Part shown: piece by piece, positions 17,458 through 64,000 of the stretch | Numbering within the stretch: position 1 is the first letter of the stretch | How the letters are laid out: every line of letters begins with the position of its first letter | Notes under the pieces: generated by a model | The model's database searches: none | Seen by the model: the letters and a program-made list of their open reading frames with translations, nothing else | Told to the model about the DNA's origin: nothing | Made by a program: the position numbers and the translations under genes | NCBI GenBank assembly: GCA_015521085.1 | Contig: WAOW01000006.1 | Coordinates: forward strand, 124,001 to 188,000 | DNA length: 64,000 bases | Direction: 5' to 3' | Source of the DNA: Candidatus Thermodiscus eudorianus | GTDB taxonomy: Archaea > Thermoproteota > Thermoprotei_A > Sulfolobales > Acidilobaceae

Positions 17458-18627
17458 ATGGAGCGTGCCGCAATCATAGGGGTTGGTTGGTACGGGTTCA
17501 AGCCAACAACCCCCGAGGTCTCGTTCCGGGAAATGATGTTTGAGGCGGCGACGAGAGCCTATCAGGACGCAGGCATAGACCCCAGAAGGGACGTAGACGC
17601 GTTCCTAAGCGCGCAGGAAGACTTCTGGGAGGGAATAGCGATAGCAGACGAGTTCGCCCCCGAGCCGATAGGCGGGGTCCTGAGGCCCACAGTGACCGTA
17701 GCGGGAGACGGAATGCAAGCTCTAGCCAACGCCGTGATGCTAGTACAGACCGGGTACTTCGACATCGTAGCCGTTGAGGCCCATGGGAAGCCGAGCGACA
17801 TAGCGTCTCTAGGGGAGATCTATGATCTAGCCCTCGACCCCATACACCACAGACCGGTCAAGCCAGCCCACCCATTCTTCATGATGGCGTTCGACGCGCA
17901 AGCCTACATGATGAGGGCCGGGGCAGAGCCAGCCCACCTGGCACTGGTCGCGGCTAGCAACCGTAACGCTGGCCTAAGGAATCCCAGGGCCAGCTACGCG
18001 GCGAGAATCGGGGTCGACGAGGTGCTCGACGCGGAGCCCGTTATAGACCCCCTGACCAGGTACGACATAGCTGGCTTCTCGGACGCGGCGATAGTGATGG
18101 TAGTGGCCAGGGAGAGCGTCGCGAAGACCCTGACCGACAAGCCCGTCTACATAGACGGTATTGGATATGCGACCGAGACCGGGACTGGTACCCTGGAGTG
18201 GCACTCCTGGGGTAGGATGCCTAGCATGAGGATAGCGGCGATGATAGCCTACAGGCAGGCCGGGATAAGTGACCCCTCGACGGCAACGGACTTCGCCGAG
18301 GTGGAGGATAGAGCCAGCCACTACCAGTTAATCGCCTTGGAAGAGCTTGGGCTGGCCCCGGAGGACCAGGCCCATAAACTCTTCGAGAAAGGCGAGTACA
18401 GCCCGGACAGCAGCTACCCCGTCAACCCGAGCGGAGGGACCCTCTCCTTGGGTGTATCGCTTGAAGCCACGGGACTGGCCAGGGTCTTGGAGGCCGTGCT
18501 ACAGCTTAGGGGGGAGGCTGGAAGCCACCAGCTGAGCGGTGTAGAGAGGGCTATCGTCGCCTCCTGGCGTGGACCGCCCACCACTACGTCCATGGTGGCT
18601 GTTTTGAGCGGCCCAGAGTTCGGTTAG
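17458..18627 (+). CDS. Cys-free thiolase-superfamily protein (SCPx/Ltp-like), first of a pair
   Basis: A 389-residue thiolase-fold protein of the sterol-carrier-protein-x / lipid-transfer class. The N-terminal AAIIGVGWYGF and the C-terminal VNPSGGTLSLGVSLEATG blocks define the fold. The nucleophile block, normally ACASGLQAL, reads VAGDGMQAL with Ala82 at the Cys position, and the whole protein contains no cysteine. The His of the GHPxGA block is Ser. It therefore cannot use classical thiolase chemistry. Family members lacking Cys act as aldolases with DUF35 partners in steroid side-chain breakdown (Ltp2 with ChsH2). ATG start with GAGGAG upstream. First gene of a four-gene plus-strand operon. 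Confidence 0.75.
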   Translation: MERAAIIGVGWYGFKPTTPEVSFREMMFEAATRAYQDAGIDPRRDVDAFLSAQEDFWEGIAIADEFAPEPIGGVLRPTVTVAGDGMQALANAVMLVQTGYFDIVAVEAHGKPSDIASLGEIYDLALDPIHHRPVKPAHPFFMMAFDAQAYMMRAGAEPAHLALVAASNRNAGLRNPRASYAARIGVDEVLDAEPVIDPLTRYDIAGFSDAAIVMVVARESVAKTLTDKPVYIDGIGYATETGTGTLEWHSWGRMPSMRIAAMIAYRQAGISDPSTATDFAEVEDRASHYQLIALEELGLAPEDQAHKLFEKGEYSPDSSYPVNPSGGTLSLGVSLEATGLARVLEAVLQLRGEAGSHQLSGVERAIVASWRGPPTTTSMVAVLSGPEFG

Positions 18628-18643: not shown

Positions 18644-19822
18644 GTGAGGGCTAACTTGCATGTGAAGGATCGCGTGGCTATTGTAGGGGCTGGGATGACC
18701 CTCTTCAGGAGGAGATTCCTTGAGACTCCAAGGGAGCTGGCTTGGGATGCCGTGAAGCAGGCCCTCGACAACGCAGGGCTAACATTGAATGACATAGACT
18801 GTGTGGTGATCGGTACCGCCCCGGACGCCTTCGATGGAGTACACTTCAACGGGGAGTATCTAGCCGATGGAGCTGGAGGCTTCGGGAAGCCGGTTGACAG
18901 GATATACATCGGCGGCGGGACCGGCGTCATGGTGCCAATCTCCGCCTGGTGGCACGCCGCTAGCGGGCACTGCAACACGGTGCTGGCCGTTGCGGAGGAG
19001 AAGATGAGCCCTGCCATGCCACACCCACAGTATGTGTTCGCGTACATCTGGGACCCTATACTTGAGAGGCCGCTTGGGCCAAACCTGATATGGATATTCG
19101 CCATGGAGATGAGGAGGTACATGCACAAGTGCGGGGCGAAGAAGGAGGACATAGCCCTCGTGAGCGTTAAGAACAAGAGGAACGCCCTAGACCATCCAGC
19201 CGCCCAGGCCGCGGCTAAGATCACGGTCGAGGACGTGCTCAACAGCGAGCTACTAGTGTGGCCCGTTAACAGGCTAGATATAAGCCCGGTCAGCGACGGG
19301 GCCGTGGCGCTGGTCATAGCCAGGGAGAAGGAGGCTCGCAGGATCACGGACTCCCCCGTATGGATAGAGGGGGTTGGGTGGACGCTTGACAACACCCACT
19401 GGTACAACAGGGAGCTGGCATACCCCAGGTACGTGGAGTACGCCGCCAGGATGGCCTATAGGATGGCTGGGATAGAGAGGCCGTGGAAGGAGATAGACGT
19501 TGCAGAGCCCTACGACCCCTTCGACTACAAGGAGCTACACCACATAGAAGGGCTACAGCTGGCCAGGAGATGCGAGGCCTGGAAGCTTGTCAAGGAGGGA
19601 TACTTCGACAGGGACGGAGAGCTGCCTACGAGTCCAAGCGGGGGCCTGCTAGGAGTAGGCAACCCGATAGCCGCTGCCGGCTTGATGAAGGTCGCAGAGC
19701 TATTCTGGCAGCTGCGCTATGAGGCCGGGAAGAGGCAGGTAAAGAAGCCGGTGCACAAGGGCGTCGCCCAGGCCTGGGGCGATCTAATGCAGGCTGGCAC
19801 CGTGATTGTTTTAGGGAATTAG
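18644..19822 (+). CDS. Thiolase-superfamily protein lacking the catalytic Cys and His, second of the pair
   Basis: 392 residues with thiolase fold (VAIVGAGMTLFRRRF at the start, TSPSGGLLGVGNPIAAAG near the end). The nucleophile position is Gly91 in YIGGGTGVMVP, and the GHPxGA His is Asn. Four cysteines are present, none at the active-site position. The usual HDxF motif near 290 is altered to EPYDPFDYKE. GTG start is set by GGAGGTG seven bases upstream. It begins 16 bases after the first thiolase-like gene and 19 bases before the first DUF35 gene. It probably forms a heteromeric thiolase-fold complex with its neighbour. Trp/Tyr-rich insertions (YVFAYIWDPI, THWYNRELAYPRY) are unusual. Confidence 0.74.
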   Translation: MRANLHVKDRVAIVGAGMTLFRRRFLETPRELAWDAVKQALDNAGLTLNDIDCVVIGTAPDAFDGVHFNGEYLADGAGGFGKPVDRIYIGGGTGVMVPISAWWHAASGHCNTVLAVAEEKMSPAMPHPQYVFAYIWDPILERPLGPNLIWIFAMEMRRYMHKCGAKKEDIALVSVKNKRNALDHPAAQAAAKITVEDVLNSELLVWPVNRLDISPVSDGAVALVIAREKEARRITDSPVWIEGVGWTLDNTHWYNRELAYPRYVEYAARMAYRMAGIERPWKEIDVAEPYDPFDYKELHHIEGLQLARRCEAWKLVKEGYFDRDGELPTSPSGGLLGVGNPIAAAGLMKVAELFWQLRYEAGKRQVKKPVHKGVAQAWGDLMQAGTVIVLGN

Positions 19823-19841
19823 AGGATGGAGGTGGTGTGTG

Positions 19842-20402
19842 ATGAGTGAAGGCGGGAAGAGTGGAATGCCCAGGGAACCCCTACCGGGTGTCTACCTGAA
19901 GAGGAAGGATCTGGAGGAGCTACCGGGCCTTATACGATACAAGCCTGTGGCCAAGTACATGTTCTCGGCGGGACAGGCCCAGTCCAGGTTCCTCAAGGGA
20001 TTGAAGGCTGGCAAGATACTAGGGGTCAAGTGCCCGGTCTGCGGTAGAGTCTACGTGCCTCCAAGGGCGTACTGCGAGTACTGCCATGCGCCCACCTCAG
20101 AGTGGGTGGAGCTGCCTGGCACTGGCGAGATACATACCGCCGTGGTGAGTTATATAGCGACTGATAGGAGCCGGCTTGAAGAGCCCGAGATCGTGGGCGT
20201 AATAAAACTAGACGCGCCCGGCTACAGAGACGGCCAATACGAGTTCGCGGGAATGTTCCACAGGATATGCGGTGTCACGCCGGAGCAGGTGATGGATGGA
20301 TCAGCGATAGGATTGAGGGTGAAGCCTAGGTGGAAGCCCCCGGAGGAGAGGACTGGCTCGGTTAACGACATCGAGTGCTTCGAGCCCGTGGAGGAGGGGT
20401 GA
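19842..20402 (+). CDS. DUF35 acyl-CoA-binding protein with intact zinc ribbon (first)
   Basis: About 186 residues. A helical N-terminal part (1-60) leads into a rubredoxin-like zinc ribbon, CPVCGRVYVPPRAYCEYC, then an OB-fold (about 85-165). DUF35 proteins bind CoA thioesters and bridge partner enzymes, as in the archaeal thiolase/HMG-CoA synthase complex and ChsH2. Start at ATG 19842 with GGAGGTGG upstream. Located directly after the two thiolase-like genes, so it most likely belongs to their complex. It is longer than the DUF35 at 63561 because of the N-terminal extension. Confidence 0.83.
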   Translation: MSEGGKSGMPREPLPGVYLKRKDLEELPGLIRYKPVAKYMFSAGQAQSRFLKGLKAGKILGVKCPVCGRVYVPPRAYCEYCHAPTSEWVELPGTGEIHTAVVSYIATDRSRLEEPEIVGVIKLDAPGYRDGQYEFAGMFHRICGVTPEQVMDGSAIGLRVKPRWKPPEERTGSVNDIECFEPVEEG

Positions 20403-20408
20403 TGGGCT

Positions 20409-20876
20409 GTGAGCTGGGATAAGAGGGCTCTGCCGGGAGACGTTATACACTATCCCGGCAAGCAGGAGACCGAGTACTACCTCTACACGCCCGGCATACA
20501 CGGGAGGGAGATGGCCGAGTTCCTGAAGCGGGGCAAGGTGCCAGGCATGCTGTGCGGCGATCAACTCCTCCTACCGCCTAAGACCTTCTGCCCCGACGCG
20601 GAGCTGAGCAAGGGCGATGTAATAGAGGTTACCGGTCCCTTCACTGTAGCCCTGGTAACGGTGGTCTACGAGGACTTCTACGGGAACAAGCTTGAAGAGC
20701 CACAGGTGCTGGGCTTGATAACGGTTCCAGGCGCGGTCGGAGGCTATCTTGGCGTGATCAACGCTGACCCCGACAGCGTGTACCCTGGCATGAAGGTCAG
20801 GCCGGTCTTCAAGAAAGAAGAGGAGAGGACCGGGGCCATCACAGACATCATGTACTGGGAGCCAGTTGAAGACTAG
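20409..20876 (+). CDS. DUF35 protein with degenerate zinc ribbon (second)
   Basis: 155 residues, homologous in layout to the preceding gene: helical lead, ribbon position, OB-fold, and shared EERTGAITDI near the C-terminus (EERTGSVNDI in its neighbour). The ribbon region keeps only two cysteines (GMLCGDQLLLPPKTFCPDA), so it probably does not bind zinc. GTG start six bases after the previous stop. The two DUF35 genes appear to be a duplicated pair matching the two thiolase-like genes, suggesting a 2+2 complex. Its TAG stop shares CTAG with the convergent SDR gene. Confidence 0.78.
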   Translation: MSWDKRALPGDVIHYPGKQETEYYLYTPGIHGREMAEFLKRGKVPGMLCGDQLLLPPKTFCPDAELSKGDVIEVTGPFTVALVTVVYEDFYGNKLEEPQVLGLITVPGAVGGYLGVINADPDSVYPGMKVRPVFKKEEERTGAITDIMYWEPVED

Positions 20877-61328: not shown

Positions 61329-62411
61329 ATGAACTTCGACATTCAAAGAGAATATCATGGAGGAGCCGGGATACATGGCTGGGGAGGCTACATCCCAAGA
61401 TACAGACTCCCGGTAGATAAGATAGCCGAGACCTGGGGTTGGCCTCCTCAACAGTACAAGGGCTTGAACGTGAGCCACAAGTCAGTCGACGGCCCAGACG
61501 AGGACTCTACGACCATGGGCTTCGAAGCGGCATACAACGCATTACTGAGGGCCCGGATAGATCCCTCGCTCATCGGAGCAGTATTCTTCGGCAGCGAGTC
61601 GAAGGTTTATGCCGTAAAACCCTCTGCAACCCTGATAGCAGAGATGATCGGGGCCACGCCAGCTACAATGGCCAGCGACCTGGAATTCGCCTGCAGAGCT
61701 GGTAGCGAGGGCCTTAAAGCCTCGCTGGGACTAGTCTCCTCCGGCATAGTGAAATACGCCCTAGCCGTGGGCAGCGATACCGCCCAGGCGGAGCCTGGGG
61801 ATGTACTCGAATTCACAGCCTCAAGCGGGGCAGCCGCCTTCATCGTCGGCCCGAGCGAGGGGTCAGCGGCAGTCGTCGAGGCGACCTATACCTATGTAAC
61901 CGACACCCCGGACTTCTGGAGGAGAGCCGAGAAACCCTATCCGAGGCATGGAGAGGGCTTCACAGGTGAGCCAGCCTACTTCCACCATATAATAAACGCC
62001 GTCAAGGGCCTCTTCGAGAAGACAGGGCTTAAGCCAGAGGACTTCGACTACGCGATATTCCACCAGCCTAATGGAAAGTTCCCCCTTAGGGTGGGAAAGC
62101 GCCTCGGGTTCACAGATAAACAACTGGAGAGGGGGCTTGTGACTCCCTTCATCGGGAATACCTATAACGCGAGTGCGTTGCTAGGCCTCGCCAGGGTCCT
62201 GGATGTGGCCAAGCCTGGCCAGAGGATCCTGGTGGCGCCCTTCGGCAGTGGGGCTGGTAGCGATGCCTACAGCATCCTTGTAACCGACGAGATAAGTGAG
62301 AGGCAGGGGCTAGCGCCTGGGATCGATGACTACCTCAAGAGGAGTAAGGAGGTCGACTACGCAACCTACACCAGGTATAGGAGGATACTTGTGATGTTGT
62401 CCAGGGGGTGA
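61329..62411 (+). CDS. Hydroxymethylglutaryl-CoA synthase (archaeal type)
   Basis: 360 residues from ATG 61329; GTG 61308 would add seven. Condenses acetyl-CoA with acetoacetyl-CoA in the mevalonate route to isoprenoid lipids. The N-terminal GIHGWGGYIPRYRL is family-typical. The nucleophile Cys122 is in DLEFACRAGSEG; FHQPNGKFP gives the His and Asn, and GNTYNASALLGLARVL the C-terminal block. So this thiolase-fold enzyme keeps its active site, unlike the other three thiolase-like proteins of the window. Overlaps the next gene region and is followed by a DUF35 gene, the known archaeal complex order. Confidence 0.92.
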   Translation: MNFDIQREYHGGAGIHGWGGYIPRYRLPVDKIAETWGWPPQQYKGLNVSHKSVDGPDEDSTTMGFEAAYNALLRARIDPSLIGAVFFGSESKVYAVKPSATLIAEMIGATPATMASDLEFACRAGSEGLKASLGLVSSGIVKYALAVGSDTAQAEPGDVLEFTASSGAAAFIVGPSEGSAAVVEATYTYVTDTPDFWRRAEKPYPRHGEGFTGEPAYFHHIINAVKGLFEKTGLKPEDFDYAIFHQPNGKFPLRVGKRLGFTDKQLERGLVTPFIGNTYNASALLGLARVLDVAKPGQRILVAPFGSGAGSDAYSILVTDEISERQGLAPGIDDYLKRSKEVDYATYTRYRRILVMLSRG

Positions 62412-62416
62412 TCGTT

Positions 62417-63547
62417 ATGGTTTACGTTACTAGCGTCGGGATGACTAGGATTGACAGGCACTTCGAAAAGGGGGTTAGGGATCTGGCCTTCGAGGCCGCT
62501 AGGAAGGCTTTGGAGGACGTCGACATAGACTCGATCGACTACCTGATTGTAGCCTCAAGCCTATCATACCAGCAAGCGCCGCAACTGGATCTGGCAGCCT
62601 ATATCGCGGGCGAGCTTGGGGTTGCAGTGAAGTCAGCGCTCGCAGTAGAGGCTGGGGAGAATAGTGGATTGGCCGCCGTCGAGGTGGCCTACAATCTCCT
62701 CCAGGCTCACGCCGCCGAGAGGGTTCTCGTGGTTGGAGTTGATAAGCTAACCGAGTATCCAAGTGGGCCAACGTATAGGATGCTTGAGGCGCTCTACGAT
62801 ACAGAGACTGACGCGGTATACAATATTGGCCATGCAACGCCGCTCGCCCTATTAATGAGAATCTACATGGAGAGGTATGGCGTGCCTAGGGAGACGCTGG
62901 CCTACTGGCCCGCCATGATGCACTTGCACGGCAAGGAGAACCCCTATGCCATGCTTAGGTTTGCCATAAAGCCTGAGAAGGTCCCTAGCTCGATGCCCAT
63001 TGCAGAGCCGATAACACTGCTCGACGCGTATCCATTGGGCGACGGTGCCGCTGCTGTGCTGTTGTCGTGCGAGGACCAGCAAGGAGACCATTTGGCTAGG
63101 CTAGCCAACATAGTCTCCGGGGTCGGCGCTCAATCAATAGCGTTGAGGGAAGACCCGCTGAGGATTGAGGCCGTCGAGAAGCTCGTACACGAACTAGATC
63201 TAAAGCCGGAAGACTTCGACGTAGTAGAGGTTCACGACAACTTCACCATAATGGGTATACTTCTACTGGAGGCTCTAGGCCTAGCACCTAGGGGGAAGGC
63301 GGCTGAACTAGTAAAGCAAGGATACTTCAGCATCAACGGAGAGGGACCCCTGGTCAACCCGAGCGGAGGGCTTAAGTCCCGGGGCAACCCTATCGGCGCC
63401 ACCGGAGTATACATGATCGCTGAGACAGCGCTCCAACTAGCCGGAGAGTTCCCTGGAGTCACTAGAAGCGGGGCCGAGAAGGGCCTAGTGGTTGGAGTCA
63501 ACGGCCATGGCTCTTCCGCCCGGATAGGCGTATTGGAGAGAGTCTAG
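62417..63547 (+). CDS. Thiolase-superfamily protein without catalytic Cys (partner of HMG-CoA synthase)
   Basis: 376 residues. In other archaea the gene here encodes acetoacetyl-CoA thiolase, which hands its product to HMG-CoA synthase through DUF35. The nucleophile block, expected as VEAACASG, reads VEAGENSG with Glu81 in place of Cys. The GHPIGATG block is GNPIGATG (His to Asn). The late Cys block reads VGVNGHGS. The whole protein contains one cysteine, in LLSCEDQ, away from the active site. Residues that bind CoA (NPSGGLKSRGNP) are kept. Start at ATG 62417, eight bases after GGGGGTG. Confidence 0.82.
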   Translation: MVYVTSVGMTRIDRHFEKGVRDLAFEAARKALEDVDIDSIDYLIVASSLSYQQAPQLDLAAYIAGELGVAVKSALAVEAGENSGLAAVEVAYNLLQAHAAERVLVVGVDKLTEYPSGPTYRMLEALYDTETDAVYNIGHATPLALLMRIYMERYGVPRETLAYWPAMMHLHGKENPYAMLRFAIKPEKVPSSMPIAEPITLLDAYPLGDGAAAVLLSCEDQQGDHLARLANIVSGVGAQSIALREDPLRIEAVEKLVHELDLKPEDFDVVEVHDNFTIMGILLLEALGLAPRGKAAELVKQGYFSINGEGPLVNPSGGLKSRGNPIGATGVYMIAETALQLAGEFPGVTRSGAEKGLVVGVNGHGSSARIGVLERV

Positions 63548-63560
63548 GAGGTGGTGTGTA

Positions 63561-63962
63561 ATGGTCCTGTCTAGGTGGTGGAGGAAGAGGATTCCCCGGT
63601 ATAGGCTAGAGGGGGCTGTATGCGAGGAGTGTGGCAAGATACACTATCCACCGAGAAACTCTTGCCCCTACTGCGGTTCAGTAAACCTCAAGAGGGTCCC
63701 TCTGCCGAGGAGGGGAGTGCTGGAGAGCTACACTGTAGTCTACAGTGTTCCGGGCGATAACAGGCTCCAAGCCCCGGTGATAGTTGGTCTAGTCAAGCTC
63801 AACGGCGGTATCCGCATAGTCACTGAGATAACCGACGCGGATCCCGGCGAGCTGAGGACTGGTATGGAGGTTGAAGCCGCTATTAGGAGGATAAGGGAGG
63901 ACGGCGATAACGGTGTTATACTCTACGGCGTGAAGTTTAGACCTGTCCTGGGGACAGGCTAA
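63561..63962 (+). CDS. DUF35 OB-fold zinc-ribbon protein (HMG-CoA synthase complex)
   Basis: 133 residues. Zinc ribbon CEECGKIHYPPRNSCPYC (about 21-38) and an OB-fold (about 50-120) with LESYTVVYSVPGDNRLQAPVIVGLV. In archaeal complexes this subunit holds thiolase and HMG-CoA synthase together and shares a CoA tunnel. ATG with GGAGGTGG upstream; the same leader wording precedes the DUF35 gene at 19842. The stop TAA overlaps the next ATG by one base. Confidence 0.87.
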   Translation: MVLSRWWRKRIPRYRLEGAVCEECGKIHYPPRNSCPYCGSVNLKRVPLPRRGVLESYTVVYSVPGDNRLQAPVIVGLVKLNGGIRIVTEITDADPGELRTGMEVEAAIRRIREDGDNGVILYGVKFRPVLGTG

Positions 63963-64000
63963 TGAGCGACGGACTCGACGAGGTAATAGAAAAGCTGGCC
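63962..64000 (+). CDS. Start of a further gene in the mevalonate operon (partial)
   Basis: Only 13 residues are visible (MSDGLDEVIEKLA) before the window ends. ATG overlaps the previous stop by one base (TAATG), so it is in the same operon. HMG-CoA reductases of archaea often begin with a similar DEVxEKL stretch and act next in the pathway; with so few residues this is a guess. Confidence 0.4.
   Translation, partial: MSDGLDEVIEKLA

Follow-up and report, generated by a model that had tools for sequence, protein, structure and literature searches.

A mevalonate-operon thiolase without its nucleophilic cysteine in Candidatus Thermodiscus eudorianus is probably retained as a non-catalytic partner of HMG-CoA synthase

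The closest described counterpart of the locus analysed here is the complex of thiolase, HMG-CoA synthase (HMGS) and a DUF35 protein from M. thermolithotrophicus (PDB 6ESQ/6ET9), in which CoA is bound at an interface that each of the three proteins helps to form (PMC6392133) and for which channelling from thiolase to HMGS has been described. The multicomponent acyltransferase PhlABC (PDB 5M3K) is likewise assembled from HMGS-, thiolase- and DUF35-like subunits and retains one dead condensing subunit, the HMGS-like PhlA, which is kept without catalytic residues beside the active thiolase-like PhlC (PMC6392133). The window examined in this study, a stretch of 64,000 nucleotides of the Candidatus Thermodiscus eudorianus genome, carries the same three-gene set as the M. 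thermolithotrophicus complex, with a thiolase of the same subfamily and fold and with intact HMGS residues, but its thiolase lacks both the nucleophilic Cys and the His of the GHP motif. The arrangement is the reverse of PhlABC, where PhlC keeps Cys88 and PhlA is dead, in that here the thiolase appears dead and HMGS is intact. The nearest solved relative by sequence, the P. furiosus thiolase PFC_04095 (PDB 7YVY; E = 6e-67), keeps EAAC and GHP, unlike the window protein. Two kinds of thiolase-fold protein without a nucleophilic Cys are also comparable. The crenarchaeal SCP2-type protein ST0096 (PDB 4YZO) differs from the window protein in that its type has a Cys-to-Ser change and the motif LHDMA, forms a separate tree branch and does not lie beside HMGS in the relatives read, while Ltp2 and Sal, which have a DUF35 partner, are aldolases that catalyse other reactions without the nucleophile, act in a different pathway and depend on a YDHF/YDCY motif (PMC12329534) that is absent from the window protein. 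Our literature search, which did not include the original complex paper (PMC5879682; it may mention such proteins), returned no report of Cys-less mevalonate-operon thiolases. Plasmid records yielded nothing useful, all their thiolases lying below 60% identity.

All genes of the locus lie on the + strand, in the order HMGS (61329-62411), Cys-less SCP2-type thiolase subunit (62417-63547; an open, full-length ORF of 376 aa), DUF35 subunit (63561-63962) and HMG-CoA reductase, of which the window holds only the start (63962-64000; 415 aa, running past the window end, recognized from its sequence by eye), overlapping the DUF35 stop codon. The HMGS exceeded the NF003274/TIGR00748 cut-off (550 bits in the NF003274 profile search, against a cut-off of 244) and has all its catalytic residues: Cys122 (EFACRAG), His245 (FHQPNGK) and Glu90 (GSESK). 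The DUF35 subunit matched PF12172 and PF01796, corresponding to a zinc ribbon and an OB fold, and has both zinc Cys pairs (CEEC and CPYC). These matches and residues agree with the earlier note, which had placed a thiolase gene between HMGS and DUF35 and had described the adjoining HMGS as intact.

In the thiolase, the former nucleophile loop reads VEAGENSG (62645-62668, + strand), and in an alignment with two solved thiolases, 7yvy and 6esq, E81 (codon GAG, 62657-62659) falls at the Cys of the EAAC motif that both of them have, with G80 replacing Ala. The former GHP His loop reads GNPIGATG (63383-63406, + strand), with N324 (codon AAC, 63386-63388) at the His position in the same alignment. 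The lone Cys of the protein lies outside the active site, and the HDxF His/Asp motif is kept as HDNF (residues 273-276). Thus, the Glu-for-Cys and Asn-for-His substitutions and the single Cys reported in the earlier note were all borne out by the ORF reading and this alignment. The protein scored above the gathering thresholds of PF22691, PF00108 and PF02803 and fell below the NCBIfam cut-offs of NF004720 (272 of 420 bits) and NF053570 (190 of 600 bits). Its single-chain AF2 model (pLDDT 94.1, pTM 0.94) gave a top Foldseek TM-score of 0.93, to 6esq_A, the thiolase chain of the M. thermolithotrophicus complex.

Loss of the Cys is conserved throughout the protein's own family (f1, whose named relatives are labelled Acidilobaceae): the position is Glu in 28 and Asp in 3 of the 31 orthologues read, mostly within EAGEASG, so that the homologue alignment proposed in the earlier note supports a conserved substitution at this site. 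Most of the 31 lack Cys anywhere in the protein, which rules out a relocated Cys for those orthologues. HMGS-linked Cys-less subunits were also found in all seven genomes read of f11 (GDASG and variants), in G081 and G101 (GDGSG), in f2, f5, f6, f8, f22, f33 and f35, and in part of f7, f10 and f18; the Cys was intact in the genomes read of f3, f4, f9, f14, f16, f21, f24, f30, f31, f38 and f39. Judging from genome features, f11 would be Sulfolobaceae and f19/f27 Thermoproteaceae. Elsewhere in the Thermoproteota the same operon gene has G, A, T, L or Q in place of the Cys. Glu or Asp is the replacement in 37 of 40 members of the largest Cys-less group, a count taken from the clade because a set picked for E/D would be circular, and the acidic residue goes with an A-to-G change at the preceding position that hardly varies. 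Most members of this group keep the GHP His and the HD motif; D237, R244, A260, G136 and the G362-G363 loop, invariant in Cys-type relatives, are changed or variable in Cys-less ones. In the genomes read, the Cys-less genes still adjoin HMGS and usually DUF35 as well, and wherever the partner is Cys-less (46 of 46 genomes) HMGS has kept its catalytic Cys, His and Glu. As a separate observation from the phylum sample, several families (L120-L130, L132) have an HMGS open frame longer than 500 codons, with no thiolase gene seen in the ~2.5 kb downstream of it.

The earlier note had treated the losses of Cys and His as a pair. The Cys loss proved clade-wide and old, whereas the His-to-Asn change, a single base (CAC to AAC), is private to the window genome within f1, and the alignment gives no support to its conservation there. 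Because it is a one-base, private change, and because GNP also occurs in three Cys-intact thiolases of another family, this substitution says little on its own; an assembly error may lie behind the base at 63386. In G080 (L113/L150), G066 (L238) and G087 (L237), the sole thiolase keeps its Cys and has GNP for GHP, so a thiolase may be able to work with Asn in place of this His.

The number of times the Cys was lost depends on the tree. The HMGS tree needs at least six changes of Cys state, and strongly supported branches make four of these unavoidable, while the thiolase tree with motif columns removed requires two changes (quick tree) or four (careful tree including paralogues), although its deep branches are poorly supported and the Cys-less genes may be drawn together by their fast evolution. 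These counts do not establish a single origin; the sequences are compatible both with repeated loss and with an ancient Cys-less lineage that was later sorted among its descendants. Genomes of f2 carry a Cys-less HMGS-linked copy together with a separate Cys-intact copy. Among Cys-less pairs dN/dS is 0.035-0.15, which shows purifying selection. The ratio of thiolase to HMGS distance was 2.34 for Cys-less and 1.43 for Cys-intact genes; this faster evolution relative to HMGS, combined with the low dN/dS, indicates a constraint that is relaxed but not lost.

A search of the window genome for a second, Cys-containing thiolase, as the earlier note had proposed, found two: an SCP2-type thiolase accompanied by a DUF35 gene of its own (C5:296903-298099; IEAACATG, HDCF and GHP intact) and a classical TIGR01930-type thiolase (C2:61288-62502; VDMVCASGM, Cys intact). 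The same pattern was seen across 65 genomes, where another Cys thiolase was present in 33 of the 35 with a Cys-less operon gene, against 2 of the 30 with a Cys-intact one (none/present: lost 2/33, intact 28/2; Fisher p = 9e-14, phylogeny ignored). Some of these genomes were searched only once the first 40 had revealed the pattern, and their results agreed with it. Among four phylogenetically independent, well-supported pairs, about three were concordant, none discordant and one uninformative (sign test p 0.25), and within-family contrasts (G041 vs G051 in f7; G080/G066/G087 vs G112/G179 in f18) agreed with the association. Missing genes are an unlikely cause of the single-thiolase pattern, since many of the Cys-intact single-thiolase genomes consist of one or few contigs and are 99% complete. 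In many heat-loving archaea, the gene for the first enzyme of mevalonate (membrane-lipid) synthesis has lost this Cys, usually to an acidic residue, and almost only in genomes with another, intact thiolase. Acetoacetyl-CoA is also formed in the 4-hydroxybutyrate cycle (PMC7078158), and 4-hydroxybutyryl-CoA dehydratase candidates (PF03241) were found in f11, f6, G051, G081 and others; the PF03241 search of the window genome found no such candidate, and the cycle was therefore rejected as the source in the window organism.

Family f8 does not fit this picture. In three near-complete genomes of this family (G042, G052 and G201), neither a Cys-type SCP2 thiolase nor a classical thiolase was found; the only thiolases found in them are a Cys-less HMGS-linked subunit and an ST0096-like, Ser-type protein with its own DUF35, with Ser, Gly, Gln or Glu in place of Cys. 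Most f8 HMGS-linked subunits have a non-acidic replacement, and Gln at the nucleophile occurs only in G042, a distant relative. A 4-hydroxybutyryl-CoA dehydratase candidate was absent from the two of these three genomes that were searched. In the ST0096-like thiolases of f8 (L253-L257, L271-L275), Ser replaces the Cys without exception (ENTSGSGG), the LHDMA motif is present and a DUF35 of their own accompanies them. That some hyperthermophilic archaea without a cysteine thiolase feed HMGS through a condensing enzyme that relies on Ser or a carboxylate, or by some other route, with a chemistry that the window subunit could share, is unlikely; the suggestion of the earlier note that a different chemistry supplies acetoacetyl-CoA survives only in f8, through these three genomes.

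We consider it probable that the window protein is a pseudo-thiolase kept for HMGS/DUF35 assembly and for a shared CoA site, acetoacetyl-CoA being made elsewhere. The thiolase fold and the place beside HMGS and DUF35 would have been kept as the Cys that carries the acetyl group was lost, and because that Cys is gone, no acetoacetyl-CoA would be expected from the subunit by thiolase chemistry. We infer an inactive subunit that stays associated with HMGS and DUF35 and, by analogy with the solved archaeal complex, may help to build the shared CoA-binding cleft and the assembly on which HMGS depends; the dead PhlA of PhlABC is a mirror-image precedent. Acetoacetyl-CoA would then come from another cellular thiolase, here the SCP2-type and classical enzymes, or, in lineages with the 4-hydroxybutyrate cycle, from that cycle, and would enter the complex from solution. 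The simplest view of the conserved carboxylate is that it may be a stable filler of the emptied oxyanion/nucleophile pocket. Of the two halves of the earlier note's first proposal, synthesis of acetoacetyl-CoA by other enzymes is well supported by the two Cys thiolases of the genome and the 65-genome association, while the structural role of the partner is deduced. The frequency of the acidic residue (37 of 40) and the retention of the His and HD motifs in most of the group go beyond what a purely structural role requires, and the acidic residue, together with its paired A-to-G change, suggests that the nucleophile pocket still matters. The three f8 genomes without any Cys-type thiolase also count against the scaffold reading.

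The same carboxylate, acting with the His and the oxyanion hole, might instead condense two molecules of acetyl-CoA through a mixed anhydride or by direct deprotonation and hand acetoacetyl-CoA to HMGS. The paired acidic and Gly residues, the GHP His kept in most Cys-less subunits and the three f8 genomes that lack a Cys thiolase for the task all speak for such Cys-free catalysis, yet we regard it as distinctly improbable, given that other Thermoproteota, including most f8 linked subunits, have G, A, T, L or Q at the position, that the window genome has lost the GHP His too, that positions fixed in Cys-type relatives (D237, R244, A260, G136 and the G362-G363 loop) have changed or vary, and that Cys loss goes together with other thiolases across the 65 genomes. 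The dead site might also bind CoA, acetyl-CoA or acetoacetyl-CoA and so tune HMGS; purifying selection, the retained CoA-family fold and the retained operon would fit such a regulatory subunit, to which we likewise assign only a slim chance, but by sequence it leads to the same expectation as the preferred scaffold role.

Poorer still are the prospects for a new reaction, in which the Cys-less site would run other CoA-ester chemistry such as decarboxylation, hydrolysis of stray acyl-CoA or retro-aldol cleavage. In KSQ domains a Cys-to-Gln change turns a ketosynthase into a decarboxylase, Ltp2 and Sal offer a precedent within the thiolase fold, and the acidic residue is conserved. However, the residue is Glu or Asp rather than Gln, on which ground a KSQ-type decarboxylating ketosynthase was rejected; the YDxF aldolase signature is missing, with VHDNF in its place, on which ground a thiolase-fold aldolase was rejected as well; and the strict HMGS/HMG-CoA reductase linkage suggests no new pathway. 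We give almost no credence to the view that a sequencing error or a decaying gene accounts for the locus: the one-base His-to-Asn change private to the window genome within f1 would suit it, but the ORF is full-length, the Cys-to-Glu change is clade-wide, dN/dS is 0.04-0.15 in relatives and the AF2 pLDDT is 94. At the Cys position itself, an error, which the earlier note had named as grounds for refutation, and a pseudogene were ruled out by Glu/Asp in all f1 orthologues read and by the dN/dS values.

The window also contains a second pair of Cys-less thiolase-like genes (17458-18627 and 18644-19822, + strand), followed by DUF35-like genes at 19839-20402 and 20409-20876. One member of the pair reads IYIGGGTG/PYDPF/GNPIAAAG and the other is more degenerate; the pair is kept in f1 and in several other families, and its YDPF motif resembles that of thiolase-fold aldolases.

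If the window subunit is inactive, the thiolase-to-HMGS channelling of the 6ESQ/6ET9 complex cannot operate here, and if the same is true in a large part of Thermoproteota, such channelling would not be general in that phylum. The operon genes annotated as acetoacetyl-CoA thiolase would then be misnamed, and the retained subunit would have to serve HMGS in some other way. The Cys-less subunits would thereby provide a natural experiment on the persistence of dead subunits.
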